In this document: positions 9,646 to 30,031 of the stretch, in pieces
How the letters are laid out: every line of letters begins with the position of its first letter
Position numbering within the stretch: position 1 is the first letter of the stretch
NCBI GenBank assembly: GCA_030432255.1
Contig: JAUIHS010000004.1
Span: 124,001 to 188,000 of the forward strand
Source: Phycisphaerae bacterium
GTDB taxonomy: Bacteria; Planctomycetota; Phycisphaerae; Phycisphaerales; UBA1924
Length of the DNA stretch: 64,000 nucleotides
Reading direction: 5' to 3'
Program-made: the position numbers and the translations under genes
The notes under the pieces: generated by a model
Told to the model about the DNA's origin: nothing
Databases searched by the model: none
The model's input: the letters and a program-made list of their open reading frames with translations, nothing else

Positions 9646-12600
9646 TCATGAAGGGCAGGCCTGGTCCCAGGAGGCCAGGAGCGCGTTGAGATCGGCGAAA
9701 TCGATGGTGCCCGTCCCGTCCACGTCACCTCCCTGCCATGACGGACCACTCATCCCCCAGTTGGTCAGGATCACGTTCAGGTCGTCAAAGTCCACCACGC
9801 CATCCCCCGTCACGTCCGTAGGGCACTGAGGCAGCACAGCGTTCACCAGCACGGACGCCGGAAGTGACTCACCGATCGCAACGGACTGGTCCTGAAACGT
9901 CACGATATCCGGACGACCGTCGCCGTCAAAATCGCCGGTAACAACCCGGACCGCTGGCGCACCGACCGCCTCCCACGCGGCGCGGGTGACGCTTCGGGGC
10001 ATCTCCGGCCGCCCGTCATTCCGCCACACCTCGATCGATGACTGAGTGGCAGACGGACGAGCCAGGGCCAGCACGACATCAGCATCGCCATCCTCATCAA
10101 GATCCGCCGCGGCACCGGCGAGGGGTGCATCGCGCAGGGTCACGAGACCGGCGGCGATGAACTCGAATGCTCCACGGTCAAGCACCCAGACAAGGGATGG
10201 GTCATCCGGCGTCCCGCCCAGCGACAGGATGTCTGTCCGGCCGTCATCCGCCAGGCCTGTCATCACGAGGGCTGCGGGATCGTGGGGGAGCGGGACGGCG
10301 ATCGGTGCCGCGAGGAAACCGGTACCCCCGGCGTTCTCAAAGATCTCGAGATGACCGGGTGCGCGGGCGCCGACGATGACGTCCGGCGCATCATCCTGGT
10401 TCAGGTCCACAACAGCCAGCGCGGTTGACCGGGCGGAGGTGATCCGTGTGTCGAGCAGAGTGAACTGCGCGGGTGTACCGCCGAGATTCTGGTAGATGAG
10501 CAGGACGCCATTGCCGCCGGGGTCCAGCGCCGCCGCGTCAGCGACGGTCGACGCCAGCACGACCAGGTCCGCCCGGTCGTCGCCCGTCATGTCTGTCGCG
10601 ACGACATCAAGGGGTGCGGCAAAAGGGCCGGTCAGCGTCGCGGACAGCGTGAACGCGCCCTCGCCATCAAAGGAGAGGATCGACAGCGCATCGCTGGCGG
10701 TGTCGGCGGAGACGAGGTCGAGACCAGGATCATCGTCGAGGTCGGCCGAGGTGAGTCCGCGAGGATCGATGCCCACGAAAACCGGCGCGCGGCTGACGAG
10801 GCCTTGCCACACGCCATCTTCATGGCCGCGATTCTCAACGTAGACGATGCGTCCGGGGTTGCTGGACGCCAGCGCGGGAATCGCGAGGGCAATGTCGAGG
10901 TCGCCGTCGGCATCAAAGTCGGCGGCGGTCATGTCAGTGGGGGTGCCGATGACACTGAAGAAGGTCGGGTCCGTAAGCGCCAGCCGATCGGCGTGACTCT
11001 CCACCGTCGCGATCACCTCAGATGCGCCAACGTCCACGCGGTAGCGAGCATTGTCGCCTGCTCCCGCCATCACAACGGCATCGGGGGCGCCCGCCAGGGC
11101 ACTCGCGGCTACCAGGTCGAATTCCGCACCTATGCCGGGCGCACCATCTGACTGCCTGAGATGCAGCAGGCCGCCCAACTGCGCATCACCCTGCACGATG
11201 ATGCGATCGTGCGGGCCCGCATCGACATCAATCTCAAGGGTGGAGAGTTCACCTTCCCGAACCAGTTCGAGATCGCCATCGATGCGGATCGTGCCGATGC
11301 CCGATCCTCGCGGCGTGATGATCCCCGCGCTGCGGACCGTGCCGGTGATGTCCCCTGCACCGGTGATCCGGCCGGCACTCAGGATGTCGGTGCCTCCTGC
11401 GGCGGCGAGACCGTTCCCGCCCAGTCGAATGTCGCCGGCCGTGATCGTCAGGGTCTCACTGAGCGTCCAGCCACTCGATCCACCCTCGAGACGTACCCGT
11501 CCCGCACCATCCTCGCCACCGATGACACCCCGGACGCTCACCAGTTCTCCATGATCGATGCGGAGCATCACTTCGCCCCCCACGCGCACCGCATCACCAA
11601 CATTCAGCGTCATGCCCCCCAGCACCAGTCGCACATCGCCTGCGATGGTCCGGAACTGGCCGACTGTCGAGCTCATGGGAAAATCGATCGCGTATGTCGC
11701 ATCGCGCCAGAGGATGACCGAGTCCGTCGGTCCCGGTACCGTCGGTCGCCAGTTGGCTGCATCCGCCCAGTCGCCCCCGGTGTCATCGGCCCACTCGCTT
11801 CCCGAGTCGCCCACCACGCGCTCGACGGCGCCCATGTCCGTCCATGTCGGTGTGCCGGAACCCGTGTCCTCGACGAGCACATCATTGACGAAGCGATCGC
11901 GCGCTGCGAGGTCCAGGGGCAGGCGCTCCGTCAGATCGCCATCGCCATCCAGATCGAACGTGTCGTCAACCGGCAGGGCGCCGACGCGGGCCGTGTCGAG
12001 GCACGGCGACCCCGGGCCGAGGCGAGCATCGTCATCAGCGGTCCCGAAGATGTCGTCGGGGCCGTCGGCATCCACGAGTCGGGGATCCTGACCCGTGTTG
12101 CTCGGCACGGAGAAGTCCGCCAACCCGGCGACGCAACTGCGCACAACCGAGGCCATGCCGAAGCCGGCCTCGACCTGTGCAGACTCGTCCGGCCCGCCCG
12201 CATCGATATTACCCCAAAGGATCGAGTTCTCGACAGTCGCCAGGCCGCCATCCGCGACAAGCAGACCCCCGCCCGAAATGCTCGCGCGATTGCCCGTCAC
12301 CGTCAGGTTGCTCGCATCAAACCCGGCGCCGACCGGTACGAAGATGCCGCCCCCGCTCTGGCCGGAGTTGCCGGAGAAGAACGTGTTGACGCAGTTGGAC
12401 TGACCACCGGCCCACATGCCGCCACCCCGCCCGTTGTCGACCGTGGTCGCCATGGCGTAGTTACCCAGGAAGCGGCAGTTGAAGAACCGTGCCGCGGCGT
12501 CCTCTGACGTGGCCACTCCACCGCCGATGGGTGCGGCGTTCGCGATGAAGTCGCAGAAGACGAATGCGGGGCTGCCACCTTCAACCGCGACGGCGCCGCC

Positions 12601-14760
12601 ATGTCCGACCGCGATGTTCGACTCGAAGCGACAGTTCCGCACGACAGGTGAGGCATCGAGACACAGGAGGCCCGCACCGCGATCCGTCATGACCGCGCCC
12701 ACACCATCCGCGAGCCCGCGCTGAATGATGAAGCCGTCGAGTTCACATCCCGGCCCGACGGTCGCCGCGACGATGACGTGCCGCGCGCTGGCGCCGGTGA
12801 GGCTGCCTGACAGGATGGTCGGGTTCGCATCCGGATCGCGTTCCTCTGCCGTGGTTTCAATTCCGAGGAACCCACCTCGGACGGCAACATCATCGACCAG
12901 GTCGAAAGATGCGCCGGGACTGGCGACGGATGGCGTGTAGATTCCACTGGCCACCCAGATCTCGGTGATGGCGCCGCCGGACGCCGCGGCATCGGCCAGC
13001 GCATCCTGCAGTCGGTCATAGGCCACGGACCATGCGAAGCCGTTGCCGCCGGGCGGGGCATCATCATCGACGACGCGTACGTGGGACGGCAGGATTTCGT
13101 CATCTTCCTCCTGCGCGAGCACGATGACGTCGGTGAGACCGGGGCCTGACACGCGGAAGTTGGCCTGTCCGTTGGCGAAGTCCGGATCGTCGGCGGCGGC
13201 GATCTCTACCAGCGCCGGCGTCGAGTAGTTGCCGGCGTTGAAATTGATCGAGGCGCCGGAGATCACGCTTAGATCGGTATCGCCCGAATCGCGCACGACG
13301 GTGACGGTGACCGGGCCGGCCGGGGGCAGGTTGAGAGAGACCGTGAAGGCGACGCTGTCATTCTCGGGGACGACGATGAAGTCCGTCGAGACGAGGAGGC
13401 GCTGCCCGGGGTCGAACTCGAAGGCGCCCATGTCTGCAACCGGTGCCGGACCGATGCCGGTGTCGATCGTGCCGGGGTCATCTTCGAAGCGTGGACGATC
13501 ATCGAGATCGAGCGGGATCGACTCGACGGTATCGCCGTCGTCGTCGAGGTCGATCAGGTCCGTGCCCACGGTCGTGTTGTTGGCGCTGTCGATGCAGGGC
13601 GAGGGGATCACCAGTCGGAGGTTGTCATCCAGCGTGCCCGGGATCCCGTCGGCCCCATCCGCATCAGCGAAGAGCGGGTCCGCATCGATGTTGCCGGGCG
13701 AGGTGAGAGTCGTGAGGCCATCAATCAGGCTGAACGTGATACTGGTGTCGATGGGGGAGCCCACGATCGCAAGCTGCGCTGCTTCGGTGATGCCACTCGA
13801 ATCCGTGTTGCGCCACAGGATCACGTTGCGGACCGTCAGGTCGCCGTCGGCGTTGGCAAGCCCGCCGCCGGAAACACCCGCGTCGTTGGCGTACAACGTG
13901 GAGTTGATCACGCGCACCGGGCCGCTGTTGTCCGCGTAGACCGCGCCGCCAGTTCCCGCGGCATTGCCCGTGAAGATGCAGTTGGTCAGCGTGATCGTGC
14001 CAGTCGCGCCTGTCGCCAACGCACCGCCGAAGCTGCTGTTGCCGTTCGCCGCGTTGCCTACAAACAGGCAGTTGGTGAATCGGCTGTTCCCGAAACCCCG
14101 CGCATCGACGGCACCGCCCCGACCGCCGTTCCCGACGCTGTTGTTCACGAAAGTGCAGCGTGTGAATCTCGGCGAACTGTCACCGTCGATGAAGAGCGCA
14201 CCACCGAATCGATTCGCTCCGGTCTGGTTGTCCCGGAACATACACTGTGTCACGCGCATGTTGCTGTGCATCAGCAGCATGGCGGCGCCGCGATCACGGA
14301 GGTCTCCCGCGCCGCCATTCGCGAATCCCTGTTCGATGATGAAACCGTCGAGCATGGTCGTGGATGTGAGACCGCTGGCATCCACAACGTGATACGTTCG
14401 CTGACCGCCGGGAAGGAGTCCACTCAGAATCGTCGGGTGCGCCTCGATGTCGCGATGTGAGCGAAGGAACTCGAAACCGCCGAAGCCGCCGTACACCGCG
14501 ACGCCCGCCGCGGGAACGAACGCATCCGTCCGACTGGCGCCGGGCACATAGGTGCCCTCGCTCACCCAGATCTCCTGAACGGCGGGTTCCGCGGCGGCGA
14601 AGTCGAACGCCTCCTGCAGATCGTCGAATGCTGAGAACCACGTGAGGCCGTCGCCACCGCCCGGCGCCGAGGCATCCACGTGCAGCACGGCCTGCCCGAG
14701 CGTCATCGGGGCGCAGATGGACAGCAGGATCAGAAGGGGAACACAGTGAAGTCGATGCAT
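9646..14760 (-). CDS. Very large secreted multidomain protein: two beta-helices, Calx-beta-like, FG-GAP repeats, dockerin
   Basis: 1704 aa with a signal peptide (LLILLSICAPMTLGQA) and GGAGAGAG before the ATG. Domain order by eye: beta-helix 1 (about 25-450), beginning with HVDASAPGGGDGLTW; a Calx-beta/cadherin-like strand domain (about 455-560, FIVVPENDSVAFTVSL); beta-helix 2 (about 565-990), which repeats the opening motif as VVDDDAPPGGNGFAW; a glycine-rich strand region (about 990-1190); FG-GAP/VCBS-type repeats (about 1210-1640) with DxDxDGDxD calcium loops such as ADFDADGDLDIA; and two dockerin EF-hands at the C-terminus (DVTGDGVVDFDDLN). It is probably a surface adhesion or binding protein; no catalytic site is recognised. 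Confidence 0.88.
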   Translation of the reverse strand: MHRLHCVPLLILLSICAPMTLGQAVLHVDASAPGGGDGLTWFSAFDDLQEAFDFAAAEPAVQEIWVSEGTYVPGASRTDAFVPAAGVAVYGGFGGFEFLRSHRDIEAHPTILSGLLPGGQRTYHVVDASGLTSTTMLDGFIIEQGFANGGAGDLRDRGAAMLLMHSNMRVTQCMFRDNQTGANRFGGALFIDGDSSPRFTRCTFVNNSVGNGGRGGAVDARGFGNSRFTNCLFVGNAANGNSSFGGALATGATGTITLTNCIFTGNAAGTGGAVYADNSGPVRVINSTLYANDAGVSGGGLANADGDLTVRNVILWRNTDSSGITEAAQLAIVGSPIDTSITFSLIDGLTTLTSPGNIDADPLFADADGADGIPGTLDDNLRLVIPSPCIDSANNTTVGTDLIDLDDDGDTVESIPLDLDDRPRFEDDPGTIDTGIGPAPVADMGAFEFDPGQRLLVSTDFIVVPENDSVAFTVSLNLPPAGPVTVTVVRDSGDTDLSVISGASINFNAGNYSTPALVEIAAADDPDFANGQANFRVSGPGLTDVIVLAQEEDDEILPSHVRVVDDDAPPGGNGFAWSVAYDRLQDALADAAASGGAITEIWVASGIYTPSVASPGASFDLVDDVAVRGGFLGIETTAEERDPDANPTILSGSLTGASARHVIVAATVGPGCELDGFIIQRGLADGVGAVMTDRGAGLLCLDASPVVRNCRFESNIAVGHGGAVAVEGGSPAFVFCDFIANAAPIGGGVATSEDAAARFFNCRFLGNYAMATTVDNGRGGGMWAGGQSNCVNTFFSGNSGQSGGGIFVPVGAGFDASNLTVTGNRASISGGGLLVADGGLATVENSILWGNIDAGGPDESAQVEAGFGMASVVRSCVAGLADFSVPSNTGQDPRLVDADGPDDIFGTADDDARLGPGSPCLDTARVGALPVDDTFDLDGDGDLTERLPLDLAARDRFVNDVLVEDTGSGTPTWTDMGAVERVVGDSGSEWADDTGGDWADAANWRPTVPGPTDSVILWRDATYAIDFPMSSTVGQFRTIAGDVRLVLGGMTLNVGDAVRVGGEVMLRIDHGELVSVRGVIGGEDGAGRVRLEGGSSGWTLSETLTITAGDIRLGGNGLAAAGGTDILSAGRITGAGDITGTVRSAGIITPRGSGIGTIRIDGDLELVREGELSTLEIDVDAGPHDRIIVQGDAQLGGLLHLRQSDGAPGIGAEFDLVAASALAGAPDAVVMAGAGDNARYRVDVGASEVIATVESHADRLALTDPTFFSVIGTPTDMTAADFDADGDLDIALAIPALASSNPGRIVYVENRGHEDGVWQGLVSRAPVFVGIDPRGLTSADLDDDPGLDLVSADTASDALSILSFDGEGAFTLSATLTGPFAAPLDVVATDMTGDDRADLVVLASTVADAAALDPGGNGVLLIYQNLGGTPAQFTLLDTRITSARSTALAVVDLNQDDAPDVIVGARAPGHLEIFENAGGTGFLAAPIAVPLPHDPAALVMTGLADDGRTDILSLGGTPDDPSLVWVLDRGAFEFIAAGLVTLRDAPLAGAAADLDEDGDADVVLALARPSATQSSIEVWRNDGRPEMPRSVTRAAWEAVGAPAVRVVTGDFDGDGRPDIVTFQDQSVAIGESLPASVLVNAVLPQCPTDVTGDGVVDFDDLNVILTNWGMSGPSWQGGDVDGTGTIDFADLNALLASWDQACPS

Positions 14761-14954: not shown

Positions 14955-16916
14955 ATGCGGTGGTTGCCGCTCCCATTCAATCTGACTCGTCGTGAAACCC
15001 GCGTCCCGATCCGACCGGCGCGCCTCCTGCTCATCGCCTCGGCATGCGCACTCACCATCGGCGCGTGGCGGGCCATGCAGACATCGGAGACGGGCATCGT
15101 GATGGAACCGGTGCGGCAGTCCGAGCTGCCACCCGACGAAGACCTCCTCGGCGGAGATGATCTGCTCGGCGGTGAAGCGGACGAGAATCCGTGGGAAGAT
15201 GCCGACAATGTTGATCCTGTGCAGGCCGCGGCGGCCGCCGCCCATGAAGCGCTCTTCACGAATGATCGGTTCCCCCTTGCGACAGAGTGCCGGACGTGCC
15301 ACCCGGACCACTACCGTGAATGGTCCGTCTCTCAGCATGCATACGCACAATTGAGTCCGATCTTCAATGCGATGCATGCGAAGATCACCGAACTCACCAA
15401 CGGGACCAACGGCGACTTCTGCATCCGCTGTCATACACCCGCCGGCATGCAGATGGGTGAACCCGTCTTCATGAGCAACATGGATCGGCACCCCGTCTCG
15501 CGCGAAGGCGTCACCTGCGTGGTGTGTCACCGCCAGAGCCAGGCGTATGGCAAACTCAGTGCACGCATCGGACTCGTCGAGGGCGACATCATCGACCCCG
15601 TCTTCGGACCGAAGGGCAATGCCGAACTCCAGCGCGTGCTGGATGACCCGGGACGCTTCCGCGTCGTGACCCGCCGCGATGAGCAGGGCCGGCGCATCCA
15701 CAACGATGCGATCCGTTTCTTCCACATCGAGCAGCCCGGCTTCTGCGGCTCCTGCCACGACGTCACCCTCGTCAACGGCTTCCGCCTCGAAGAGGCCTTC
15801 AGCGAATACAAGAGTTCACCCGCCGCCGATCGCGGCGCGACCTGCCAGGACTGCCACATGGGTGTCGAACCGGGAATCGACTCCGGGTACGCGCACGAAC
15901 CCGCGGCGATCGTGGGCGGCATCGCCACCAAGCCACGGAAGCGCACCAATCATTACTTTGCCGGTCCGGACTATTCCGTGATGCATCCCGGTCTCTTCCC
16001 CCACAACCCGGAGGCGATGGAATTCGCCACCATGGAAGAGTGGACGCACTTCGACACCGACGCCGGCTGGGGGACACCCGCTTTCGAGGATGCCGTTCCG
16101 GAGGGGACGACCTTCCCCGACCGCTGGCGGGCGCCCGGTGACCGTGAGATCGCTCGGCGCATCATCAACGACAACCTCGAACTCCTCGAGTGGGCGCGTC
16201 AGCAGCGGCTTGCCGTGCTGCGGCGGGGCTATGTCCTCGGTGACATCACCATCGACGAGAAGGACAACGGACTCGCCTTCACCGTGGACGTGATGAATGG
16301 CACGGACGGGCACAACGTGCCCACGGGCTTCACCGCGGAGCGGCTGACATGGCTGCACGTCGTGGTCACCGATCGCGACGGGGCCGTGGTCATGGAGTCG
16401 GGGGACATGGACCCCAACGGTGACGTCCGGGATCTGCATTCGCAGTACGTCCACGACGGGCTGCTTCCGCTCGACGAGCAGCTCTTCAGCCTGCAGTCGA
16501 AGTTCATCGTGCGCAACCGCAGGGGCGGTGAGCGGGAGCAGGTCCTTGCTGTCAATCACAGTCTTGATCCGCTGCCCTTTGTTCGCCGCGATCCGAACCC
16601 CACGATCCTGACGGGCCGTCCGATTGATGCGCGCATTCACAAGAAGGGCATCGCGCCGCTCGATACGCGTGAGGCGAAGTACCGCGTGGCGGCTTCCGAT
16701 CTCACGGGTGCCGGGCCGTACACGATCAGTGTGGAACTGCGTGCGGCGATGGTGCCGGTGAACCTGGTTCGCGAGATCATGTCGATGGGCTTCGACTACA
16801 ACATGACGCCCCGGGAAGTGGTCGACAACCTGCTGGCGGGTCATCATCTGCTCTGGGAGCGGACGGTGACGGTGAACCCTGATCCCACTGACGCCCTCGT
16901 GGACGGGTCGGAGTAA
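14955..16916 (+). CDS. Membrane-anchored or exported pentaheme c-type cytochrome
   Basis: The ATG at 14955 follows AAGGAG by 8 bases, giving 653 aa. One N-terminal hydrophobic segment (residues 23-37) serves as signal or anchor. It is followed by an acidic linker with DEDLLGGDDLLGG (about 61-73). Five CXXCH heme sites lie at 112 (CRTCH), 156 (CIRCH), 188 (CVVCH), 264 (CGSCH) and 297 (CQDCH), in the style of the cytochrome c554 family (ECRTCHPDHYREWSVSQH). The C-terminal half (about 330-653) has no heme site and looks like a beta-rich domain. It stands first in a six-gene cluster, 2 bases from the porin-like gene. It probably moves electrons in the periplasm or at the outer membrane; the donor and acceptor are unknown. 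Confidence 0.88.
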   Translation: MRWLPLPFNLTRRETRVPIRPARLLLIASACALTIGAWRAMQTSETGIVMEPVRQSELPPDEDLLGGDDLLGGEADENPWEDADNVDPVQAAAAAAHEALFTNDRFPLATECRTCHPDHYREWSVSQHAYAQLSPIFNAMHAKITELTNGTNGDFCIRCHTPAGMQMGEPVFMSNMDRHPVSREGVTCVVCHRQSQAYGKLSARIGLVEGDIIDPVFGPKGNAELQRVLDDPGRFRVVTRRDEQGRRIHNDAIRFFHIEQPGFCGSCHDVTLVNGFRLEEAFSEYKSSPAADRGATCQDCHMGVEPGIDSGYAHEPAAIVGGIATKPRKRTNHYFAGPDYSVMHPGLFPHNPEAMEFATMEEWTHFDTDAGWGTPAFEDAVPEGTTFPDRWRAPGDREIARRIINDNLELLEWARQQRLAVLRRGYVLGDITIDEKDNGLAFTVDVMNGTDGHNVPTGFTAERLTWLHVVVTDRDGAVVMESGDMDPNGDVRDLHSQYVHDGLLPLDEQLFSLQSKFIVRNRRGGEREQVLAVNHSLDPLPFVRRDPNPTILTGRPIDARIHKKGIAPLDTREAKYRVAASDLTGAGPYTISVELRAAMVPVNLVREIMSMGFDYNMTPREVVDNLLAGHHLLWERTVTVNPDPTDALVDGSE

Positions 16917-16918
16917 CG

Positions 16919-18331
16919 ATGCGAGACATGCCTGACTGCTTCTCCGCCGCCATGACGGGTGCCCTGGCGATGTTGGTTTCCGTTCCGATTGTTTCAGCTG
17001 CGCCTCCGCACCATGAGGAGCACGACTCCGATGCGCACCATGCCGAGGAACTCTTCCCTGATGAGCCGGCCCCGCTGAAACTGGACACGTTCCCGGAGCG
17101 ACCGAAGCCGCTGCTTGAACTGGGGCCGGACTTCCTCGGGCCCGGCGAGATCGGTGAGGGCATCACGCTGCCCACGGGTGCCGTCTGGCAACCATCGCTG
17201 CTCGTCTTCGGTCAGTACCGTTCGGCGATCCAGACATTCGACACCGGGGAGGAGACCTTCACCGAGTGGGCGAACACGCTCGACATCTTCGCCAACCTGC
17301 AACTCTCCGGCACCGAGCGCGTGCTCTTCGGCATGCGTCCGCTCGAGGATGAGGGTGAGTTCATCGGCTACAACTTCAACCCTGACGAGGACGAGGGCTG
17401 GCAGAACGACTTCAGCGAACGCATCACGTCCCTCTACTTCGAGGGTGAGTTCGGTGAGATCTTCCCCGGCCTCGACCCCGGAGATCGGCACTCCCTCGAC
17501 TGGGGCTTCTCCGTCGGTCGCCAGCCCATCTTCTTCCAGGAAGGCATGCTGATCAACGACACGCTGGATGCCATCGGCATCACCCGCAACACGGTGCTCT
17601 TCGACGGCGGGTCGGACTGGCGCACCACGTTCCTCTGGGCGTGGGATGACATCGATCGCAACAATAACCGCGAGTCCCGGGAGGCAAACCTCTTCGGTGT
17701 CTTCAACGAGATCGATGTGCCGCTCAGCACCATCAACGTCGATGTGGTGTGGGTCGATGACCACGATGGTGACACCGATGGCATCTTCTTCGGCGCCAGC
17801 GCCGTCCAACGAATCGGCACCATCAGCACCGCCTTTCGCATTCTGAATTCTTCTTCATTGCACGAAGATTCGGCGGCGGTCAGTGATGGCACGCTCCTCT
17901 TCAGCGAGGTGTCGTGGACGCCGCACCACACGCATGACATCGTCTACGTCAACGCGTTCCTCGGTCTCGATGAGTTCTCCTCCGCGGCCCGTGATCCCCT
18001 CGCTGATGGTCCCCTCGGCAGAGTCGGCCTCGTCTACGAAGCGGTCGGACTCGGGCGCTACGGCGCACCACTGGGGAATCGGCCCGATGAATCACTGGGC
18101 GTCGCCGTGGGTTATCAGATGTTCATGGACGACAATCGGCGGCAGATCACCTTTGAAGTGGGGGGGCGCAATGACATCAACGATACCGATCGAGGCGCCC
18201 TCGCCGCCGCCGTGAGCGTGCAGCAGGCCCTCGGACGCAACACCATCATCAGATCGGACGCCTTCGCCGCCGCCCACGAACACGATGCCCCCGGCTGGGG
18301 TATCCGATTCGAAGTCCTGATCAAGTTCTAG
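16919..18331 (+). CDS. Outer-membrane beta-barrel (porin-like) protein
   Basis: 470 aa with a signal peptide (ALAMLVSVPIVSA) and a His-rich stretch just behind it (APPHHEEHDSDAHHAEE), which could bind metal. The body alternates amphipathic strands with acidic turns (SLDWGFSVGRQPIFFQEG, RFEVLIKF) and ends in Phe, the usual outer-membrane barrel terminus. It starts 2 bases after the pentaheme cytochrome stop, so the two are surely co-expressed. A barrel beside multiheme cytochromes invites comparison with porin-cytochrome conduits, but I see no specific MtrB or PcoB signature, so that role is inference. Substrate specificity is not readable. Confidence 0.72.
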   Translation: MRDMPDCFSAAMTGALAMLVSVPIVSAAPPHHEEHDSDAHHAEELFPDEPAPLKLDTFPERPKPLLELGPDFLGPGEIGEGITLPTGAVWQPSLLVFGQYRSAIQTFDTGEETFTEWANTLDIFANLQLSGTERVLFGMRPLEDEGEFIGYNFNPDEDEGWQNDFSERITSLYFEGEFGEIFPGLDPGDRHSLDWGFSVGRQPIFFQEGMLINDTLDAIGITRNTVLFDGGSDWRTTFLWAWDDIDRNNNRESREANLFGVFNEIDVPLSTINVDVVWVDDHDGDTDGIFFGASAVQRIGTISTAFRILNSSSLHEDSAAVSDGTLLFSEVSWTPHHTHDIVYVNAFLGLDEFSSAARDPLADGPLGRVGLVYEAVGLGRYGAPLGNRPDESLGVAVGYQMFMDDNRRQITFEVGGRNDINDTDRGALAAAVSVQQALGRNTIIRSDAFAAAHEHDAPGWGIRFEVLIKF

Positions 18332-18398
18332 AGTCGAGGGCCCGAATCGATACAATGATTCCCGGAACCGGGAAATTGCCCTCATTCCACGCCTCACG

Positions 18399-19709
18399 AT
18401 GCACCCCAGTGTCTCTCTTGAGCGTATCAACGGTGGGAATCAACTCGGAACTCGCTTGATGATCGGATTCGTTCTCTACCTGGTTGGAAGCCTCAGCATC
18501 GCGGCGGCATCCGTTCGCATTGGTGTGATGCTCAGGCGACGCCTGCGCCGTGCGGCCGCCCGCCGCGCCCGAAGAGAGCGCGAGGCGAACCGGTTCGCTG
18601 ACGCAGTCGAGCAGGCCATCTCCCGTCACTTCGACGAGTCAGCCGACCTGCCCGCCTGGGATGGGTGGCGTCGCTTCGAGGTCCGCCGCAAGGTCGTCGA
18701 GGCCGAGGGCGTCTGCTCCTTCTATCTCCGCCCATCGGACTCCGCCGAACTTCCAGCCTATGTGCCGGGTCAGTACCTCCGACTGCGCGTTCCGGTCGAG
18801 TCGAGTGAAGACGGTCTCATCCGGTGCTATTCGCTCTCGGATCGGCCGCGATCTGATCACTACCGCATCACCGTCAAGCGTTGCCTTCCGACAACGGACG
18901 GCACCCCACCCGGCGCCGGTTCGGCATGGCTCATCGATCATGTCGACGTCGGACACCAACTTGATGTGCAGGCGCCCATCGGGCGCTTCTGCCTCACCGA
19001 CGATCAGAAGCCGCTCGTCTTCCTCGCCGGCGGCATCGGCGTCACGCCGATCCTCAGCATGCTGAACCACCTCGTCGAGTCGCGCTCATCGCGCGATGTC
19101 TGGTTCTTCTACGGCATCCGGGGCAGTCACGAGATCGTCATGCCCGATCATCTTCGGGCCATCGCCCGCTCCTGTCCCAACATCCGTATCCACCTCTGCT
19201 ACAGCCACGCCGGCGAGCGGACTGAGATACCCGGAACCACCGCTCACGAGAGCATGATCGAGGTCGACCTGCTCCGCAGACTCCTCCCGCTGCGCCCGTT
19301 CGAGTTCTACATCTGCGGCCCGGACGCCATGATGGATGCGCTGACGGTCGGCCTGCAGGGATGGGGCGTGCCCCCCGCGCGGATCCACACCGAGTTCTTC
19401 GGCGCCGAGTCCGTCAGTCGGGCAACCCACCACGATCATGTTCCGGGCGATCGCGCGGTCGATGTCGTCTTCGCGCGATCCGGGCAGACCGTGCGCTGGA
19501 TCGAAGGCGATGGCTCGCTTCTGGACCTCGCCCACGATCATGGCATCCGGATGGAGTCCGGCTGCCGCAACGGTCACTGCGGCTCCTGCATGACCGCGGT
19601 GAAGTCGGGCCGGGTCCGCCACATCTGCACGCCCTCCCTGCGCATGCGGAAGGGATCCTGCCTCGCGTGCATCGCCAGCCCCGAAACCGATATCGTCATC
19701 GACGCCTGA
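18399..19709 (+). CDS. Membrane-anchored FAD/NAD(P) oxidoreductase with C-terminal 2Fe-2S ferredoxin domain
   Basis: 436 aa from 18399; an ATG at 18459 would start directly at the membrane helix (MIGFVLYLVGSLSIAA). A basic linker is followed by an FAD-binding barrel (PGQYLRLRV, RCYSLSDRP), an NAD-binding domain (FLAGGIGVTPILSML, YICGPDAMMDAL) and a plant-type ferredoxin (CRNGHCGSC...CLAC). This order matches Hcr, phthalate dioxygenase reductase and similar proteins, not NqrF, where the ferredoxin comes first. It would take electrons from NAD(P)H and pass them on. Placed between cytochrome genes, it may feed the heme chain, though the topology puts its domain on the cytoplasmic side. TACAAT at 18351-18356 could be its own -10. 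Confidence 0.88.
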   Translation: MHPSVSLERINGGNQLGTRLMIGFVLYLVGSLSIAAASVRIGVMLRRRLRRAAARRARREREANRFADAVEQAISRHFDESADLPAWDGWRRFEVRRKVVEAEGVCSFYLRPSDSAELPAYVPGQYLRLRVPVESSEDGLIRCYSLSDRPRSDHYRITVKRCLPTTDGTPPGAGSAWLIDHVDVGHQLDVQAPIGRFCLTDDQKPLVFLAGGIGVTPILSMLNHLVESRSSRDVWFFYGIRGSHEIVMPDHLRAIARSCPNIRIHLCYSHAGERTEIPGTTAHESMIEVDLLRRLLPLRPFEFYICGPDAMMDALTVGLQGWGVPPARIHTEFFGAESVSRATHHDHVPGDRAVDVVFARSGQTVRWIEGDGSLLDLAHDHGIRMESGCRNGHCGSCMTAVKSGRVRHICTPSLRMRKGSCLACIASPETDIVIDA

Positions 19710-19785
19710 ACCCACCCACGCACCGGGACAGCGCGTATCATGCGGGCTGTCTCATCGCCGCTATGCCGCCTCGGCCGGAGGATCC

Positions 19786-20814
19786 GTGAAATCTGCACGC
19801 TCACTGCTGCCCGTGTTGGTGCTCACACCCGTCGCCGCGATCGCGTTCACGACCATCACGTCGGAGCCGACCGGCCTCCCTTACGACGCCACCGCGATCG
19901 TCGGGCCCGACGAATGCGGCGAGTGCCACGAGGCCGAAGTCTCCGCCTGGCGCACGACCCATCACTATCGCTCGTTCACCGAACTCACGCGCCGGACCGA
20001 AACGCTCGACATGGCCGACAAACTCGGCATCGATCGTGTGCGTCAGGCCGACGAATGCGTCTCGTGTCACTACACCCGGCAACTGGATATGGACCACCTG
20101 GACCGTCCCGAGGTCATCGCCGGTGTCTCCTGTGAGATGTGCCACGGTCCATCGCGCGACTGGCTGGAACCCCACGCCGACTATGGTGTCTTCGGCACGA
20201 AGGACGCCGAGCCCCACGAGCACCGCGTGGAACGTATTCTGACCTCTGTCGCGGCCGGCATGAATCACCCGGACAACATCTTCGATGTCGCGCGCAACTG
20301 CTACCGCTGCCACCTCGGGCCCGACGAGCGCATTGTCAACATCGGAGGGCATTCGCCGGGCAGCCGCTTCGAACTCGTCGCCTGGTCACAGGGTGAAGTG
20401 CGTCACAATTTTGCCGATGACCCCAAGGTGAATGCCATCACCAACATCGAGCGGCAACGCCACATGTACGTCGTCGGACAGGCGCTCGAACTCGCAGGAG
20501 CCCTCAGGGGTATCACCGGCGCCACCGGCCGCGGCCGCTACGTTGCCGCCCACGTGGCCCGGATCAAGCAGACGCGTACCAACCTCGAAGCCGTCGCTGA
20601 GCGGGTGAATGTCGAGCAGATCACCAGGATCATCGAGACGCTCGATGCCACCAAGGTGAGCCTCGACAACGACGAAGCCCTGAACGCGGCCGCCGCCACC
20701 ATCGAGGAACTGGCGCGGGATGTCTCGGAGAACGTACCGGCTGCCGATCTCGCCCCCATCGATGACATGCTGCCGGCGCCGGAAGACTTTCACGGCGAGG
20801 CCCTGACGCCGTGA
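19786..20814 (+). CDS. Tetraheme cytochrome c554-like protein
   Basis: 342 aa from a GTG start with GGAGGATCC before it. The N-terminal signal is LLPVLVLTPVAAIAF. Four CXXCH sites lie at about residues 44 (CGECH), 91 (CVSCH), 116 (CEMCH) and 172 (CYRCH); the spacing and context (ECGECHEAEVSAWRTTHHY, SCEMCHGPSRDWLEPH) are those of the cytochrome c554 family, which carries electrons from hydroxylamine oxidation in nitrifiers but also occurs in other respirations. The last 100 residues are helical with no heme. Its stop overlaps the next start by 4 bases. No hydroxylamine oxidoreductase is in the window, so the donor is open. Confidence 0.88.
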   Translation: MKSARSLLPVLVLTPVAAIAFTTITSEPTGLPYDATAIVGPDECGECHEAEVSAWRTTHHYRSFTELTRRTETLDMADKLGIDRVRQADECVSCHYTRQLDMDHLDRPEVIAGVSCEMCHGPSRDWLEPHADYGVFGTKDAEPHEHRVERILTSVAAGMNHPDNIFDVARNCYRCHLGPDERIVNIGGHSPGSRFELVAWSQGEVRHNFADDPKVNAITNIERQRHMYVVGQALELAGALRGITGATGRGRYVAAHVARIKQTRTNLEAVAERVNVEQITRIIETLDATKVSLDNDEALNAAAATIEELARDVSENVPAADLAPIDDMLPAPEDFHGEALTP

Positions 20815-21644
20815 GTCCCGCGGCCGCCAGGGTCCTGCGCTGCTGGGTGGAGCCGGCGGTGGCGCTGCTCGTTGCAGCGGCGTTGTTGCTGTGGTGGATG
20901 GTTGCCGAAGCCGCATTGGTGCGAATCACGACGCTGACCGGGTGGATCCTCGCGGTGCTCCTCGCGTTCCTCCTCTGCAACGCACCGCGCGAGATGCTCC
21001 TCCGGATCACCCGCGTGCCGGCGCGCTTCTGGTACCGACTCCATGCATGGGTCGGCATCCTCACAGGCGTGACGGTGGCCATTCATACCGGCCTGCATGT
21101 TCCGCATGGACCCATAGAGGCCCTCGCGACGCTCCTCTTCATCACGACGTTCCTGCTCGGGATCGTCGGACTCTGGGTCTCGCAGTCGATCCCGCTTCGT
21201 ATCGCCTCCATTCCAACGGCAGTTGAAGCGGGAGCCATCGCGCAGCATCGGCGCGAGGTGCACCAGGCGGTCGAGGAAGTGGCTCTGCGACATGCCGAAT
21301 CCACCGGGGACGACGCCGTCGCAAACGCCTATGACCGTGAACTGCGCCAGGAGTTTGAAGTGCCTCGGCACCGACTGGCACACCTGATCAACACCAGTCG
21401 AGTCCGCCGCGGCATCGACCGGCGCATCACCGCGCGTCAACGCCGCCTCAACGAACCGGCATGCGCCGCCCTTGAGGAGATCCGCAGGCTTGCCTCGGCC
21501 AAGGCGGACCTCGATGAACTCGAAGCGTGCCATGCCTTCCGCAACACGTGGCTCGCAACGCACCTGCTGTGTTCGTCCATGCTCGGTGTGCTCGTCGTCT
21601 TCCACGCCGTCATCAGCCTGACCTATGCGGGAGGTGCACCGTGA
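20811..21644 (+). CDS. Membrane protein, probable b-type cytochrome, with cytoplasmic or periplasmic helical insert
   Basis: 277 aa from GTG, overlapping both neighbours by 4 bases (GTGA), so translation is probably coupled. Four or five membrane segments: about 16-36, 43-60, 70-90, 100-122 and 246-268. Histidines in the membrane segments (WYRLHAWVGILTGVTVAIHTGLH, and THLLCSSMLGVLVVFHAV near the C-terminus) are placed like heme b ligands in small di-heme cytochromes of the b561/ferric reductase kind. A charged helical insert (about 130-240) separates the segments. It could link the quinone pool to the periplasmic multiheme proteins; no named family was recognised with certainty. Confidence 0.65.
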   Translation: MSPAAARVLRCWVEPAVALLVAAALLLWWMVAEAALVRITTLTGWILAVLLAFLLCNAPREMLLRITRVPARFWYRLHAWVGILTGVTVAIHTGLHVPHGPIEALATLLFITTFLLGIVGLWVSQSIPLRIASIPTAVEAGAIAQHRREVHQAVEEVALRHAESTGDDAVANAYDRELRQEFEVPRHRLAHLINTSRVRRGIDRRITARQRRLNEPACAALEEIRRLASAKADLDELEACHAFRNTWLATHLLCSSMLGVLVVFHAVISLTYAGGAP

Positions 21645-23476
21645 AGCGCGCCGTGCGCCGTCGCCGACGCATGGCGGGATGGGCGGTTGCCGTCGCGGCC
21701 GGGCTCATCTGCCTGCTGCTCGCTTCACCGTGGAGTGAGCGGATGGTGATGCCCGGTGAACTCTCGCCACCTCATGCCACGCTGACGGACCGCTGCGATC
21801 TGTGTCATCAGCAGGGGAGCGGAGCCGTGGCCCGCGCGATCGGATCGCTCGGAGGCGATCACCTGGTCGCCGGCCCCGTCAGCAACAACCAGTGCATCGC
21901 GTGTCACGATCGAGGCCGCTTCCCCCTCGCCGCACACTCGGTCGATACCGGCAACCTCTCGGTCCACAATCTCAGGGACGAAGGCTCCTTCATCGTCGAA
22001 CTCGCACATGGATACACCGATCACGAGTCGCTCTCCTGTATCACCTGCCATCGGGAGCATCGCGGCGAGGAGTCGGACATCACCACCTTCTCCGATGCGC
22101 AGTGCCAGGCGTGCCACGTCCAACGCTTCGCATCATTCTCGAAGGGTCACCCACCCTTCGAACGCTATCCCTTCGATACCCCGCAGCGCATCGCGTTCGA
22201 TCACGAGCGTCATCTGAATGTCCACTTCGCCGATGAAGAGTTCAGGGATCGGGCACCGACCGATTGCCGCGGCTGCCACACGCAGTCGGGCGACGGGCGC
22301 GACATGACGATCGGAAGCTACGAGAACACGTGCGCCGCCTGTCATGCCGATGACATCAGTGGGGCAGGGCGTGCAGGTGATCGGGGCATCCCGGTCTTCT
22401 CGCTCCCCGCCGTCGATCTGCGCGCATTGGGTGATGCCGGCGGGGCCGTCGGCCATTGGCCCGTGGATGCGCGTGTCATCGAGACGCCGATATCACCCTT
22501 CCTGAAACTGCTGCTCCGTGCCGACCCGCGCGGCGAAGCGCAACTCCAGGTCCTCAGCCGCACCAACCTCCTCAACCTGTCCGACGCGACGGAAGAGCAG
22601 CACGCCGCCGCGCGCTGGCTGCTGTGGACGACCCGTGCCATCCTCGACGACATCCGGTCACGCGGCCACGTCGCCATCACCGATCGCATCGAGACGACGC
22701 TGCGTCGTCCGCTCGATCCCGACACCTCCGGTGCGCTGCTTGCGGGGCTTCCGGGAGACGTCCTCGTCGAGGCCATCGGGCGCTGGCTCCCTGATCTCGA
22801 GGCCGAACTCGAAGCGTATCGCAACGGCGAACCTCTCCCAACCTTGAACAGATCTCATAACGGGGCGGCGGACTCAACCCCGGATACATCAGGCGATGAC
22901 CTGGCGGGCGATCTCCTCGGGGACGACCTGCTTGGTGGCGATATGGAAGACCCATTCGCCGATCAACCGGAAAGGGAAGCCGGCGACGCCATCCGGACGC
23001 CGGGCGAGGACTGGGTTGCCTATGGCGGATGGCATCTCATGGACAGTTCGTGGGGCATCCACTATCGCCCGGTCGGTCATGCGGACCCCTTCCTGCGGGC
23101 ATGGGCGGATGTCGCCGCCTCATCGGGGCGCGGCACGATCCTCGATCTGATTGCAGAACCCGATGCGCCCGGCGCCTGCGTGAAGTGTCATGCCAGAACC
23201 TCCACCGGAGTCGCCTGGCGATCACAGCGCACGCTGAGTTCCACGAGGCTGTCCCGACCCTGGACCCATTTCTCGCACGCCCCGCATCTCAGTCTCACCG
23301 ATGCGGACGACGGATGCCGCACATGCCACGTGCCGAAGACATTCAACACACGTGTCAACGGCCACACGCGATTCAACAGTTTCCTGGACATCAATGCCGA
23401 CCAGTGCAACACCTGCCACCAGCCGGAGCGCGCCGGAAACACCTGCCTACAGTGTCATAACTACCATGTCAGGTAG
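21641..23476 (+). CDS. Decaheme c-type cytochrome, N-terminal signal-anchor
   Basis: 611 aa from the GTG at 21641, which overlaps the preceding stop. The N-terminus is a twin of Arg-rich sequence and a hydrophobic helix (WAVAVAAGLICLLLA). Ten CXXCH sites: 52, 85, 133, 155, 209 and 231 in the first part, then 513, 559, 589 and 602 at the end. The 280-residue middle is heme-free and holds an acidic stretch GDDLAGDLLGDDLLGG (about 420-435) that resembles the linker of the pentaheme protein. Ten hemes is the number in MtrA/OmcA-type proteins, but the split 6+4 layout is different. Likely a periplasmic or surface electron wire ending this cluster. Confidence 0.87.
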   Translation: MKRAVRRRRRMAGWAVAVAAGLICLLLASPWSERMVMPGELSPPHATLTDRCDLCHQQGSGAVARAIGSLGGDHLVAGPVSNNQCIACHDRGRFPLAAHSVDTGNLSVHNLRDEGSFIVELAHGYTDHESLSCITCHREHRGEESDITTFSDAQCQACHVQRFASFSKGHPPFERYPFDTPQRIAFDHERHLNVHFADEEFRDRAPTDCRGCHTQSGDGRDMTIGSYENTCAACHADDISGAGRAGDRGIPVFSLPAVDLRALGDAGGAVGHWPVDARVIETPISPFLKLLLRADPRGEAQLQVLSRTNLLNLSDATEEQHAAARWLLWTTRAILDDIRSRGHVAITDRIETTLRRPLDPDTSGALLAGLPGDVLVEAIGRWLPDLEAELEAYRNGEPLPTLNRSHNGAADSTPDTSGDDLAGDLLGDDLLGGDMEDPFADQPEREAGDAIRTPGEDWVAYGGWHLMDSSWGIHYRPVGHADPFLRAWADVAASSGRGTILDLIAEPDAPGACVKCHARTSTGVAWRSQRTLSSTRLSRPWTHFSHAPHLSLTDADDGCRTCHVPKTFNTRVNGHTRFNSFLDINADQCNTCHQPERAGNTCLQCHNYHVR

Positions 23477-25200: not shown

Positions 25201-25533
25201 TCAGGGAGCGAAGCTGGAGCCACATCCGCAGGTGGCCGTGGCGTTGGGGTTCGTGAACACGAAGCCACGCCCCATCAGTTCGTCCTTGAAGTCAATCGTC
25301 GTGCCGTTGAGGTACAGGTAGCTCTTCGGATCACAGATGATCTTCACACCGTGCTGATCAAAGAGTTCATCGACGTCCTTCTCGTTCTCGGTGAGGTCGA
25401 GGATGTAGCTGAAGCCACTGCATCCGCCTCCCTTCACACCAACGCGAAGGCGTACCTTGTCCGTATCCAGGTTTTCGCGCTCCACGATCGTCTGGATCTC
25501 ACGCGCTGCCGTCTCAGTAAGGGTGATCCCCAT
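25201..25533 (-). CDS. A-type iron-sulfur carrier protein (ErpA/IscA family)
   Basis: 110 aa, the standard length. The three conserved cysteines are seen in GGGCSGF (about residue 36) and C-terminal CGCGSSFAP, with the ITETAAREIQTI opening. It passes Fe-S clusters from the scaffold to apoproteins. It is 13 bases downstream of iscU, clearly the same transcription unit. By eye I cannot decide between ErpA, IscA and SufA, so no symbol is given. Confidence 0.92.
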   Translation of the reverse strand: MGITLTETAAREIQTIVERENLDTDKVRLRVGVKGGGCSGFSYILDLTENEKDVDELFDQHGVKIICDPKSYLYLNGTTIDFKDELMGRGFVFTNPNATATCGCGSSFAP

Positions 25534-25546
25534 GGGTCATTCGTCC

Positions 25547-25969
25547 TCAGTGATCATGGCCGGCGTCGCCGCCTTGGCCGTTCTTCTTCTTGTAGTCGCT
25601 GATCGCCGCGCGGATCGCATCCTCGGCAAGCACCGAGCAGTGGATCTTCACCGGCGGCAGGCTCAGTTCTTCGACGATATCCGTATTCTTGATCTCAAGG
25701 CCTTCGTCAACCGTGCGGCCCTTGAGCCACTCGGTCGCCAGCGAACTCGATGCAATCGCAGAGCCGCACCCGAAGCACTTGAACTTCGCATCCTCGATCT
25801 GGCCGTCATCCGCGACCTTGATCTGCAACTGCATGACGTCGCCGCACTCCGGCGCACCGACCACGCCGACGCCGATGTCCTTGCGATCCTTGACCTCGGT
25901 GGTGGTACCGAAGTTCCCCACGTTGCGGGGGTTCTCGTAATGGTCGATCACTTTGTCGCTGTATGCCAT
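25547..25969 (-). CDS. iscU: Iron-sulfur cluster scaffold protein IscU
   Basis: 140 aa starting MAYSDKVIDHYENPRNVG, nearly the E. coli IscU opening; this ATG (25969) is better spaced from AGGTG than the ATG 9 bases earlier. Conserved cluster-binding residues are present: Cys in GAPECGDVMQLQI, Cys in FGCGSAIASSS and Cys in PPVKIHCSVLAEDA. The HscA-recognition motif LPPVK is intact although hscA/hscB are not in the window. It receives sulfur from IscS encoded just upstream. Confidence 0.95.
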   Translation of the reverse strand: MAYSDKVIDHYENPRNVGNFGTTTEVKDRKDIGVGVVGAPECGDVMQLQIKVADDGQIEDAKFKCFGCGSAIASSSLATEWLKGRTVDEGLEIKNTDIVEELSLPPVKIHCSVLAEDAIRAAISDYKKKNGQGGDAGHDH

Positions 25970-26075
25970 GTCATTCACCTGTCTCGGGCCAATCAGCAGC
26001 CCGCTGTAGATTCTAGCCGCATTCGAGTCGCGTGTTTCCCGGTTTCCGGACCTCAGGGTCCGCCGGGGCCGGCCG

Positions 26076-27308
26076 TCAGTGAGCCTGCCACTCGATCGCG
26101 TTGATGTCGATGCCTTCCTGGAACATGTCCCACAGGGGGCTCAGCTCACGCAGCTTCTGCACCGCTGTCGTGATGCCCTCAATGGCGAAGTCCACCTCTT
26201 CCTGCGACGTCCAGCGCCCCAGTGACAGCCGGAGCGAACTGTGCGCCAGATCGTCACCCACGCCCAGGGCCTTCAATACGTAGCTCGGCTCCAGCGACGC
26301 ACTCGTGCACGCCGAACCTGAAGAACAGGCGATGTCCTTCACCGCCATCATCAGACCCTCACCCTCCACGTAGCCGAAGCTGATGTTCGTGATGTGCGGC
26401 AGACGCTTCTCCTGGTTGCCGTTCAGCTTGCTGTGCGGAATCCTCTCCAGCAACGTCTGCTCCAGGTGGTTCCGCATGCCCAGCAGGCGATCGCGGTCAG
26501 ACTCCATCTCGGCCGCAGACAACTCGCACGCCTTGCCGAAGCCCACAATGCCCGTGACGTTCAACGTCCCTGAGCGGAAGCCACGCTCCTGACCGCCGCC
26601 GTCGATCTGGGACACCAGGCGGACTCGCGGCCGGCGACGCCTCACGTACAGACCGCCCACACCCTTCGGGCCATACATCTTGTGGCCGGACCAGGACATG
26701 AGGTCCACCTCGTCACGCGCCACATCCACCGGCATCTTGCCGACCCACTGGGTCGCATCCGTGTGGAAGATCACGTCCCGCTCGTGGCACAGCTTGCCGA
26801 TCGCGGGGATCTCGTTGATGGTGCCGATCTCGTTGTTCGCCCACATGATCGTCACGAGAATCGTGTCGTCACGCATCGCGCCCTTCACCATCTCCGCCGT
26901 GATCACGCCATCCTCCGGCGGCGTCAGGAAGGTGACGTCGAAGCCCTCCTTCATCAGACGCTTGCACGGATCCAGCACGGCCTTGTGCTCGTGAAGCACC
27001 GTGATGATGTGGCCACGGTTCGCGCTGCCCGCAGGGGCACGCTCGTACATGTACGCGGCCCCCTTGATCGCCAGGTTGTTCCCCTCCGTCGAACCGGAGG
27101 TGAAGATCACTTCCTTCGGCTGGGCCCCGATCAGCGCAGCAGCCTGCTCGCGGGCCTTGTCGACGGCGGCTTCGGAATCCCATCCGAAGCGGTGATTGCG
27201 CGAGCCCGGGTTGCCGAACTTCTCGGTGAAGTAGGGGAGCATCGCCTCCACCACCCGGGGGTCGCAGGGGGTCGTCGCGGCATGATCCATGTAAATCGGA
27301 AGCTTCAT
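26076..27308 (-). CDS. iscS: Cysteine desulfurase IscS
   Basis: 410 aa from the ATG at 27308 (MKLPIYMDHAATTPCDP), preceded by GGAGAGGACTGAG. PLP enzyme that takes sulfur from cysteine for Fe-S clusters, tRNA thiolation and other uses. The PLP lysine is in SWSGHKMYGPKGVGG, and the mobile-loop cysteine in CSSGSACTSASLEPSY near residue 325, of IscS rather than SufS type. It is the first gene of an iscS-iscU-A-type carrier set; no iscR, hscB, hscA or fdx follows. The 185-base upstream region contains a short palindrome. Confidence 0.95.
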   Translation of the reverse strand: MKLPIYMDHAATTPCDPRVVEAMLPYFTEKFGNPGSRNHRFGWDSEAAVDKAREQAAALIGAQPKEVIFTSGSTEGNNLAIKGAAYMYERAPAGSANRGHIITVLHEHKAVLDPCKRLMKEGFDVTFLTPPEDGVITAEMVKGAMRDDTILVTIMWANNEIGTINEIPAIGKLCHERDVIFHTDATQWVGKMPVDVARDEVDLMSWSGHKMYGPKGVGGLYVRRRRPRVRLVSQIDGGGQERGFRSGTLNVTGIVGFGKACELSAAEMESDRDRLLGMRNHLEQTLLERIPHSKLNGNQEKRLPHITNISFGYVEGEGLMMAVKDIACSSGSACTSASLEPSYVLKALGVGDDLAHSSLRLSLGRWTSQEEVDFAIEGITTAVQKLRELSPLWDMFQEGIDINAIEWQAH

Positions 27309-27378
27309 CTCAGTCCTCTCCGTGTCAGCCACCGCGATCCCATCGCCGCGGGCTAAAACAAGAGTCAAATGTCCAGTT

Positions 27379-29200: not shown

Positions 29201-29240
29201 AGTCTTCCTCGCAGTACTGGCCGTCTCTCCGGCGCTGGTC

Positions 29241-29771
29241 CTATCTCCCGGCATGCCCGACGTCAGCGTGACAGTGCATGCAAGAGAGCATGTCGCTCCC
29301 GGACGTCACCGGTCGCATGTGATCCACAAAATCGCTGTGGCAATGCAGGCACGCATTCTGCGTCACCCGCCGGTTGCGATCCTTGATGCGGATGGGCTCA
29401 TGGAAATCGTTGGTGGTGAAGGCCAGCGAATGAAAGAAGCCGTTGTCAGCCTTCGTCACCCACTTGCCCACCGAATCGTGCGGCAGGTGGCAGTCGTTGC
29501 ATGTCGCCACGTTCTCATGGCTCGACTTCAACCACGAGTCATAATGTCCCTGCATCACATGGCAGTTCATGCACGCCGCGGGATCGTTTGAAAGATACGC
29601 GGCACCATCCCCATATCCAAACGTGAAAGCGCCAAGCCCGCCGAGGATGCCAAGAGCAATAACAGCCAGTATCGGAAGGATGCGCTTTTTCCAGGTGCGA
29701 CGCGGCTTCGATGCCGTCGGGTCAGAAACCTGCCCGGACCTGGGATCGTGTTGCGCTGACGCCTCTGTCAT
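29241..29771 (-). CDS. nrfH: Cytochrome c nitrite reductase small subunit, tetraheme quinol dehydrogenase
   Basis: 176 aa from the ATG at 29771; the frame stays open 108 bases further up, and no strong ribosome site decides the start. A basic N-terminal stretch is followed by one membrane helix (about 31-51). Four CXXCH motifs: CMNCH 67, CNDCH 91, CLHCH 141, CMHCH 164, the NapC/NirT/NrfH pattern, with CMNCHVMQGHYDSW characteristic of NrfH. It takes electrons from menaquinol and hands them to NrfA. The gene order nrfH-nrfA is standard. Confidence 0.94.
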   Translation of the reverse strand: MTEASAQHDPRSGQVSDPTASKPRRTWKKRILPILAVIALGILGGLGAFTFGYGDGAAYLSNDPAACMNCHVMQGHYDSWLKSSHENVATCNDCHLPHDSVGKWVTKADNGFFHSLAFTTNDFHEPIRIKDRNRRVTQNACLHCHSDFVDHMRPVTSGSDMLSCMHCHADVGHAGR

Positions 29772-30031
29772 CAGCAAAACGATACCCGGGTGTGCACACT
29801 TCATCAATTGAAGCTCAGGCCCGGTGCTCACCCTCCGATCAGGTGATCCTGGCGCTCCGCGATACTCAGCACGCATCACCCCGGTTCAGGTCGACGCCAT
29901 CATCAAAGTCCGGGCATGCAGGCCCGACCGCTCCTCGGGTCGGGGTGAAGTGTCTTGCACTCACAAGGGCGACACCCGCCACCGAAGCGCCCGGACAATT
30001 CTGAGGAAACGTCACGGGCCCCGCCCCCGAG

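Follow-up and report, generated by a model that had tools for sequence, protein, structure and literature searches.

A PCC4-type gene cluster in a Phycisphaerae genome and its candidate role as an NAD(P)H-driven electron chain across the cell envelope

We analysed a 64,000-nucleotide window of a Phycisphaerae bacterium (assembly GCA_030432255.1, contig JAUIHS010000004.1); the contig spans 214 kb, and the genome has 4.5 Mb and is 94% complete. Six open reading frames on the + strand (14955-23476), here called g1 to g6, form a cytochrome and reductase cluster. Judged by sequence, the cluster is a member of PCC4, a putative set named from genomes, which has lost its Fe-S subunit. Open reading frames, motifs and domains confirmed the gene content given in an earlier note on this DNA: a pentaheme c-type cytochrome of 653 amino acids (g1, 14955..16916), an outer-membrane beta barrel of 470 (g2, 16919..18331), a membrane-anchored FAD/NAD(P)H/2Fe-2S reductase of 436 (g3, 18399..19709), a tetraheme cytochrome of the c554 type of 342 (g4, 19786..20814), a ferric-reductase-like inner-membrane protein with paired histidines of 277 (g5, 20811..21644) and a decaheme cytochrome of 611 (g6, 21641..23476). 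From g1 to g6 the CXXCH motifs number 5, 0, 0, 4, 0 and 10, adding up to the 19 claimed in that note. Its count of four overlapping or abutting junctions out of five was too high: the successive gaps are +2, +67, +76, -4 and -4 bp, making three, with the g5 start overlapping the g4 stop and the g6 start overlapping the g5 stop by 4 bp each. The ATG of g1 at 14955 is preceded by a ribosome-binding site (AAGGAG), and the codon-position GC of all six genes resembles that of typical genes of the window. A terminator scan returned three sites against 3.1 expected by chance, the sole + strand site lying inside g5; this is compatible with a single transcript for the six genes, without proving it.

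Homologues showed the same heme counts and, for the most part, the same neighbours. Five hemes were found in 91 of 96 g1 rows, four in 58 of 59 g4 rows and ten in 69 of 80 g6 rows, some of these homologues being truncated at contig ends; since the counts recur, chance is excluded. A profile search of GTDB genomes with g1 returned 508 relatives, of which 80 were kept; these include Planctomycetota, Acidobacteriota, Verrucomicrobiota, Nitrospinota, Nitrospirota, Pseudomonadota and Rhodothermota, as well as Bacteroidota, Myxococcota, Gemmatimonadota, Calditrichota, Latescibacterota and KSB1. The same families are syntenic in at least 12 phyla. Most relatives are metagenome-assembled genomes, where an isolated placement could result from misbinning; named strains are represented by Nisaea, Tistlia and Sulfidibacter. 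The most frequent arrangement is g1 g2 g3 g4 FeS g5 g6, FeS denoting a gene discussed below. The conserved synteny that the earlier note had proposed to check is strong (g1 and g2 adjacent in 85 of 87 loci, FeS and g5 in 62 of 63, g5 and g6 in 63 of 63); the single operon and the electron-transfer chain suggested there are likewise supported. Departures from this order include Nitrospinota, where g3 is placed after g6, and Acidobacteriota, Rhodothermota and Bacteroidota, where g4 is octaheme and g3 absent. No flanking gene family was common to the window and its relatives. Within the order the distribution is patchy, with g1 at E below 1e-150 in about 15 of 400 genomes, and a g5 search of the phylum matched 52 of 392 genomes, the weaker matches including other clusters. 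In the g1 tree, group labels require 13 changes against a minimum of 11, indicating strong clustering by phylum; nothing in the tree points to rampant transfer in recent times, and the window g1 falls with Planctomycetota (98*).

This gene set was published in 2017 as PCC4, including its heme counts, its membrane-protein signature and its presence in Planctomycetes, so we rejected the view of the earlier note that it might be a new conduit. He et al. (2017, PMC5566968) described a porin with periplasmic 4-, 5- and 10-heme cytochromes and other redox genes, together with an inner-membrane protein that has WX3HX13H twice as well as SGXXG; the carriers named were Hyphomicrobium, Zetaproteobacteria, Gammaproteobacteria, other Alphaproteobacteria and Planctomycetes. 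The window shares the porin clustered with these three cytochromes, a redox gene ahead of the tetraheme one (g3 directly before g4), and, in g5, both WX3HX13H motifs and both SGXXG glycines (G117 and G120, unchanged across 69 rows). The serine, reported as conserved and not stated as a membership criterion, is replaced by L116, giving LGxxG in the fourth transmembrane segment; it is S in 82% of rows and T, V or G in other fully syntenic loci, and we therefore do not treat it as defining. The cluster fits neither published subgroup exactly: in subgroup II a PF13247 Fe-S gene, which the window lacks, precedes that for the membrane protein, and subgroup I has genes in mixed directions, whereas all six are on the + strand here. 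Among the taxa named by He et al., a Hyphomicrobiaceae genome (L147) carries a 56% identical g1 with mixed gene directions as published; the second half of the cluster is inverted, as stated for subgroup I, and L147 nonetheless has the PF13247 gene. Homologous clusters also occur in Gammaproteobacteria and Alphaproteobacteria.

The FeS protein of the relatives combines cNMP-binding domains with a 4Fe-4S dicluster domain, and its gene usually lies between g4 and g5, where the window instead has the 4 bp overlap. A search of the host genome, at its stated completeness, returned partial Fe-S matches only, none with cNMP domains. In G414 (L068, L161), from the same family as the window, the start of the FeS gene is kept at a contig end, while G278 (L134, L053) has neither the FeS gene nor g3; the loss is therefore local. 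The FeS gene is also missing from the Nitrospirota locus L123. In L123, L124 and L125, all Nitrospirota, g3 is reduced to a membrane anchor and a 2Fe-2S ferredoxin domain. At another locus, a cNMP/4Fe-4S protein (L040:10783-12816) bears an additional N-terminal FHA domain.

At the outer-membrane end of the set, g1 consists of an N-terminal signal or transmembrane segment, a heme domain (CXXCH at 112, 156, 188, 264 and 297), part of which matches Cytochrome_C554, and a C-terminal Ig-like domain. It matches the pentaheme cytochrome c552 5ZE8 over nearly its full length (profile E 1.6e-15, Foldseek E 6e-9), and comparison of its model with 5ZE8 (VIA) gave Z 15.0 and a root-mean-square deviation (rmsd) of 6.8 over 314 residues within g1 103-640. 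In the alignment, six further nearly invariant histidines stand against the five hemes. A 2025 study (PMC11976967) groups proteins resembling 5ZE8 and those resembling ExtKL as a single family of pentaheme cytochromes that have an Ig-like domain, and g1 belongs with these cytochromes. A search of plasmids with g1 gave partial matches only, at 23-28% identity.

The neighbouring g2 begins with 79 disordered, His-rich residues, followed by about 18 strands (18 or 19 counted) and a terminal F (...LIKF). Modelled with ColabFold from a 16-row alignment (pLDDT mostly 70-90 over residues 80-470), it has OprD/Occ channels, AlgE, Campylobacter MOMP and chitoporin as its nearest solved folds, superposing on OprD/Occ/AlgE/MOMP-type barrels with Z 24-28 and rmsd 2.7-4.3 over about 310-335 residues. 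The modelled fold is thus the 18-strand OprD/Occ/AlgE, solute-porin type, a shared fold that shows no function. Conduit barrels such as MtrB were not among the structure matches listed for the g2 model, although absence from a list is not proof. MtrB has 26 strands, which enclose the decaheme wire MtrA. As an MtrB-like sheath for a multiheme wire, g2 is probably too narrow, so that electron transfer to the outer face, as proposed in the earlier note, stays hypothetical. That note had named two findings that would speak against its conduit, a solute-porin barrel and neighbours not conserved together; the model gives the former, while the neighbours are kept together. The g1-g2 pair stays adjacent even where it diverges from the other cluster genes, which argues that the two form one module.

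At the inner membrane, g3 has an N-terminal membrane anchor followed by FAD_binding_6 (PF00970), NAD_binding_1 (PF00175) and a C-terminal, plant-type 2Fe-2S domain (Fer2, PF00111); it matches the reductase domain of flavohemoprotein (E 2.6e-42) and conserves RxYS, GGxGxTP, C306GP and CX4CX2C. Its true start may lie later, for example at the M of MIGFVLYLVG. From its two WX3HX13H motifs (W74-x3-H78-x13-H92 and W247-x3-H251-x13-H265), g5 is predicted to carry two b hemes, and the complete four-histidine signature is present in all 69 rows except two near-identical ones. Likeness to ferric reductases is weak (PF01794, E 2e-4, below the cut-off; a weak PF08030 match for the g5/g3 pair), the pair being ferric-reductase-like in parts. 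The g5 profile found no meaningful match among solved structures, leaving the b-type fold without structural confirmation. Five distant clusters (L051, L054, L059, L061 and L063) combine a g5-like or cNMP/4Fe-4S protein with other multiheme cytochromes, and no g2 barrel was recognised in them; the inner-membrane module apparently serves elsewhere as well.

The remaining cytochromes look like wires rather than catalytic sites, because each heme has a matching conserved candidate for a distal histidine. For g4, a member of the c554 fold family (PF13435, E 2.6e-15; 1BVB cytochrome c554 profile, E 4e-14), these are four invariant histidines at 60, 130, 189 and 207, one per CXXCH motif. For g6, they are ten further conserved histidines alongside its ten motifs; the protein has an N-terminal transmembrane or signal segment, six hemes, an acidic linker and four more hemes, and matches c7/paired-CXXCH models and, weakly, the MtrA chain 6r2q_A (E 8.7e-5). 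The pattern fits bis-His electron-transfer hemes throughout g1, g4 and g6, and we infer that these cytochromes are loaded with heme.

Tandem acidic DDLLG-type repeats link g1 with g6. They occur in 15 of 96 g1 rows and 7 of 80 g6 rows, in none of the g2-g5 or FeS rows, and in one of 890 other open reading frames. Across 61 loci with both genes, seven have repeats in both, three in g1 only, none in g6 only and 51 in neither (hypergeometric about 3e-7, computed by hand and ignoring relatedness). Loci with repeats span Planctomycetota, Verrucomicrobiota and Gammaproteobacteria (L070, L073, L076, L100, L115, L048 and L050), and the window has them in both genes, at approximately 15135-15170 and 22895-22945. 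Our guess is that the repeats of g1 and g6 share a docking partner.

The likely electron source emerged from the loci with an octaheme g4. None of these 20 loci has g3, and in nine of them a Pyr_redox_2 flavoprotein unrelated to g3 lies downstream of g6, mostly next to an FHA protein (ten loci counting L102, the others being L081, L085, L091, L103, L109, L111, L122, L133 and L136). This flavoprotein occurs in none of 58 tetraheme loci, and never together with g3 in the loci examined; related sequences count more than once here, so the numbers describe a pattern, not a probability. The occurrence of g3 and of an unrelated flavoprotein in the same setting argues for NAD(P)H input. Between the two sources offered by the earlier note, NADH or quinol, this exchange makes NAD(P)H appear more likely and quinol less so.

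We consider the chances somewhat better than even that the cluster encodes a PCC4-type, NAD(P)H-driven electron chain from NAD(P)H through the periplasm to the outer membrane. Cytosolic NAD(P)H would reduce the FAD and 2Fe-2S cluster of membrane-anchored g3, which would pass electrons to the two predicted b hemes of g5 and so across the inner membrane in the manner of ferric reductases and NADPH oxidases. In most homologues the FeS protein may relay electrons from g3 to g5; with its gene lost in the window, g3 would feed g5 directly. From g5, the wire-type bis-His hemes of g4 and g6 would carry electrons over the periplasm to g1, docked on the barrel g2 as a terminal outer-membrane module. The acceptor might be reached outside the cell or be a small soluble compound that enters through the barrel, with a slight lean towards the latter. 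What we observe are the gene content and families, the conservation of hemes and histidines, the synteny, the absence of the FeS gene and, in a model, the barrel class; order and direction of electron flow, as well as the acceptor, are what we infer. Tentatively, and with much less confidence, we extend this proposal to PCC4 as a whole: a widespread, modular NAD(P)H:outer-membrane oxidoreductase, the bacterial counterpart of ferric reductase/NADPH oxidase over two membranes and not an MtrAB-like conduit, in which an OprD-type channel would bring a soluble acceptor to the pentaheme cytochrome, the NAD(P)H module would be swapped between unrelated flavoproteins, and the co-varying acidic DDLLG linker would dock both periplasmic cytochromes on a common partner.

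Several points weigh against an NAD(P)H-driven outward chain. In about a third of tetraheme loci, some of them cut, the searched stretch contains no g3, so g3 input is not universal; and G278 (L134:14354-15253, L053) has lost g3, FeS and one g5 histidine ligand (H78Q, the first heme-b ligand) while its cytochromes are all retained. Over the heme domain the model of g1 is of low quality (mean pLDDT 62.5), and we found no experiment in the literature on any PCC4 protein. Moreover, He et al. proposed the opposite direction, from an external donor to the quinone pool, on the basis of PCC4 occurring in Fe(II) oxidisers and drinking-water filters, extracellular electron transfer being a hypothesis in that paper too (PMC5566968). 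Such an inward chain, in which a donor outside the cell or in the periplasm, for example Fe(II) or Mn(II), would be oxidised at g1-g2 and electrons would pass via g5 to the quinone pool, agrees with the presence of relatives in Nitrospinota, Nitrospirota and one Hyphomicrobiaceae genome. We nevertheless regard it as improbable: the co-encoded, replaceable NAD(P)H flavoproteins fit an electron source, and reduction of NAD+ by Fe(II) or Mn(II) is energetically uphill.

A true porin-cytochrome conduit, with part of g1 (or g6) inside the g2 barrel and electrons passing to minerals, humics or cells outside, is possible, if doubtful. PCC4 was itself proposed as a conduit (PMC5566968), and in Geobacter the extHIJKL cluster, which encodes a porin and a pentaheme cytochrome of the periplasm but none for the outer surface, sustains on its own roughly half the wild-type reduction of Fe(III) oxide and as much as 75% of that of Mn(IV) oxide (PMC6148476). 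Against this stand the 18 strands of the modelled OprD/AlgE-class barrel, compared with 26 in MtrB, and the lack of an outer-surface lipoprotein cytochrome in the operon; scored with the MtrC/OmcA outer-surface decaheme model (TIGR03507, cut-off 209.3), g1 reached 10 bits and g4 14.8, and g6 gave no match, the cluster having no further gene of this type. We give as little weight as to the inward chain to an assimilatory or detoxifying role, in which reducing a metal or an oxyanion (ferric complexes, selenite, tellurite) at the outer membrane would serve uptake or resistance and not respiration. Such a role would suit the partly ferric-reductase-like g5 and g3 and a host genome with two heme-copper oxidase genes, in which O2 respiration is probable; yet nineteen hemes per set are costly for an iron-saving device, and next to the cluster no family of transporters recurs from locus to locus. 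Loss of ExtI, the porin beside ExtKL, does impair selenite and tellurite reduction, which its authors read as uptake, and leaves Fe(III) citrate reduction intact (PMC5877670). Together with the extHIJKL oxide data, this gives both acceptor models a precedent.

The function of PCC4 has been a hypothesis from sequence since 2017. Given how widely it occurs, that its NAD(P)H flavoproteins are exchanged and that the barrel is modelled as a solute-porin type, soluble acceptors with NAD(P)H are worth testing first, besides minerals, and cultured carriers exist in Nisaea denitrificans and Sulfidibacter corallicola.

Other genes flank the cluster in the window. On the - strand, 4 kb downstream, nrfA and nrfH (27494-29879) likely encode an ammonia-forming nitrite reductase, judging by their families (nrfA, PF02335, E 2.9e-111, with five CXXCH and no CXXCK; nrfH, PF03264, with four CXXCH); nrfAH had no match in the cluster loci of the relatives. 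Between both cytochrome clusters lie IscA-, IscU- and IscS-like Fe-S assembly genes (25201-27368, - strand), and divergent from the PCC4 cluster is a gene for a 1704-residue secreted protein that contains repeat regions and has a C-terminus resembling a dockerin (9646-14760, - strand), both read from translations alone.

Among other known systems, two were rejected as the same set: the Verrucomicrobia porin-multiheme cytochrome clusters, because their periplasmic cytochromes have eight hemes (PMC5615132), and the Hao-c554 nitrification module, because the cluster has no Hao gene and g4, though within the PF13435 fold family, scores 43.8 bits against a cut-off of 400 for cytochrome c554 proper (Nitrosomonas CycA, NF043010). 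MtrCAB shares a barrel and a decaheme cytochrome with the window, but its barrel class appears different and its inner-membrane partner is CymA instead of a ferric-reductase-like g5. In Thermochromatium tepidum c552 (5ZE8), the five-heme and C-terminal Ig-like domains align along g1 at about 20% identity in the structural alignment; we know of no barrel or reductase partner for it. Geobacter extHIJKLMNOPQS likewise places a pentaheme cytochrome with an Ig-like domain (ExtKL) beside a porin (ExtI), further multiheme cytochromes and a b-type cytochrome, its members including ExtM/ExtN and the cytochrome b ExtP. It differs in that ExtKL is a predicted selenoprotein and that the window cluster has no rhodanese or Rieske genes; g1 also fails the ExtKL equivalog NF040886 (25.8 bits against a cut-off of 250). 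At the inner membrane, the nearest parallel is the NADPH oxidase/ferric reductase type (FRD plus FAD/NAD domains), which has the same split between NAD(P)H, FAD and two membrane-crossing b hemes; the window system divides these parts over two genes, adds a 2Fe-2S cluster and would deliver its electrons to multiheme cytochromes.

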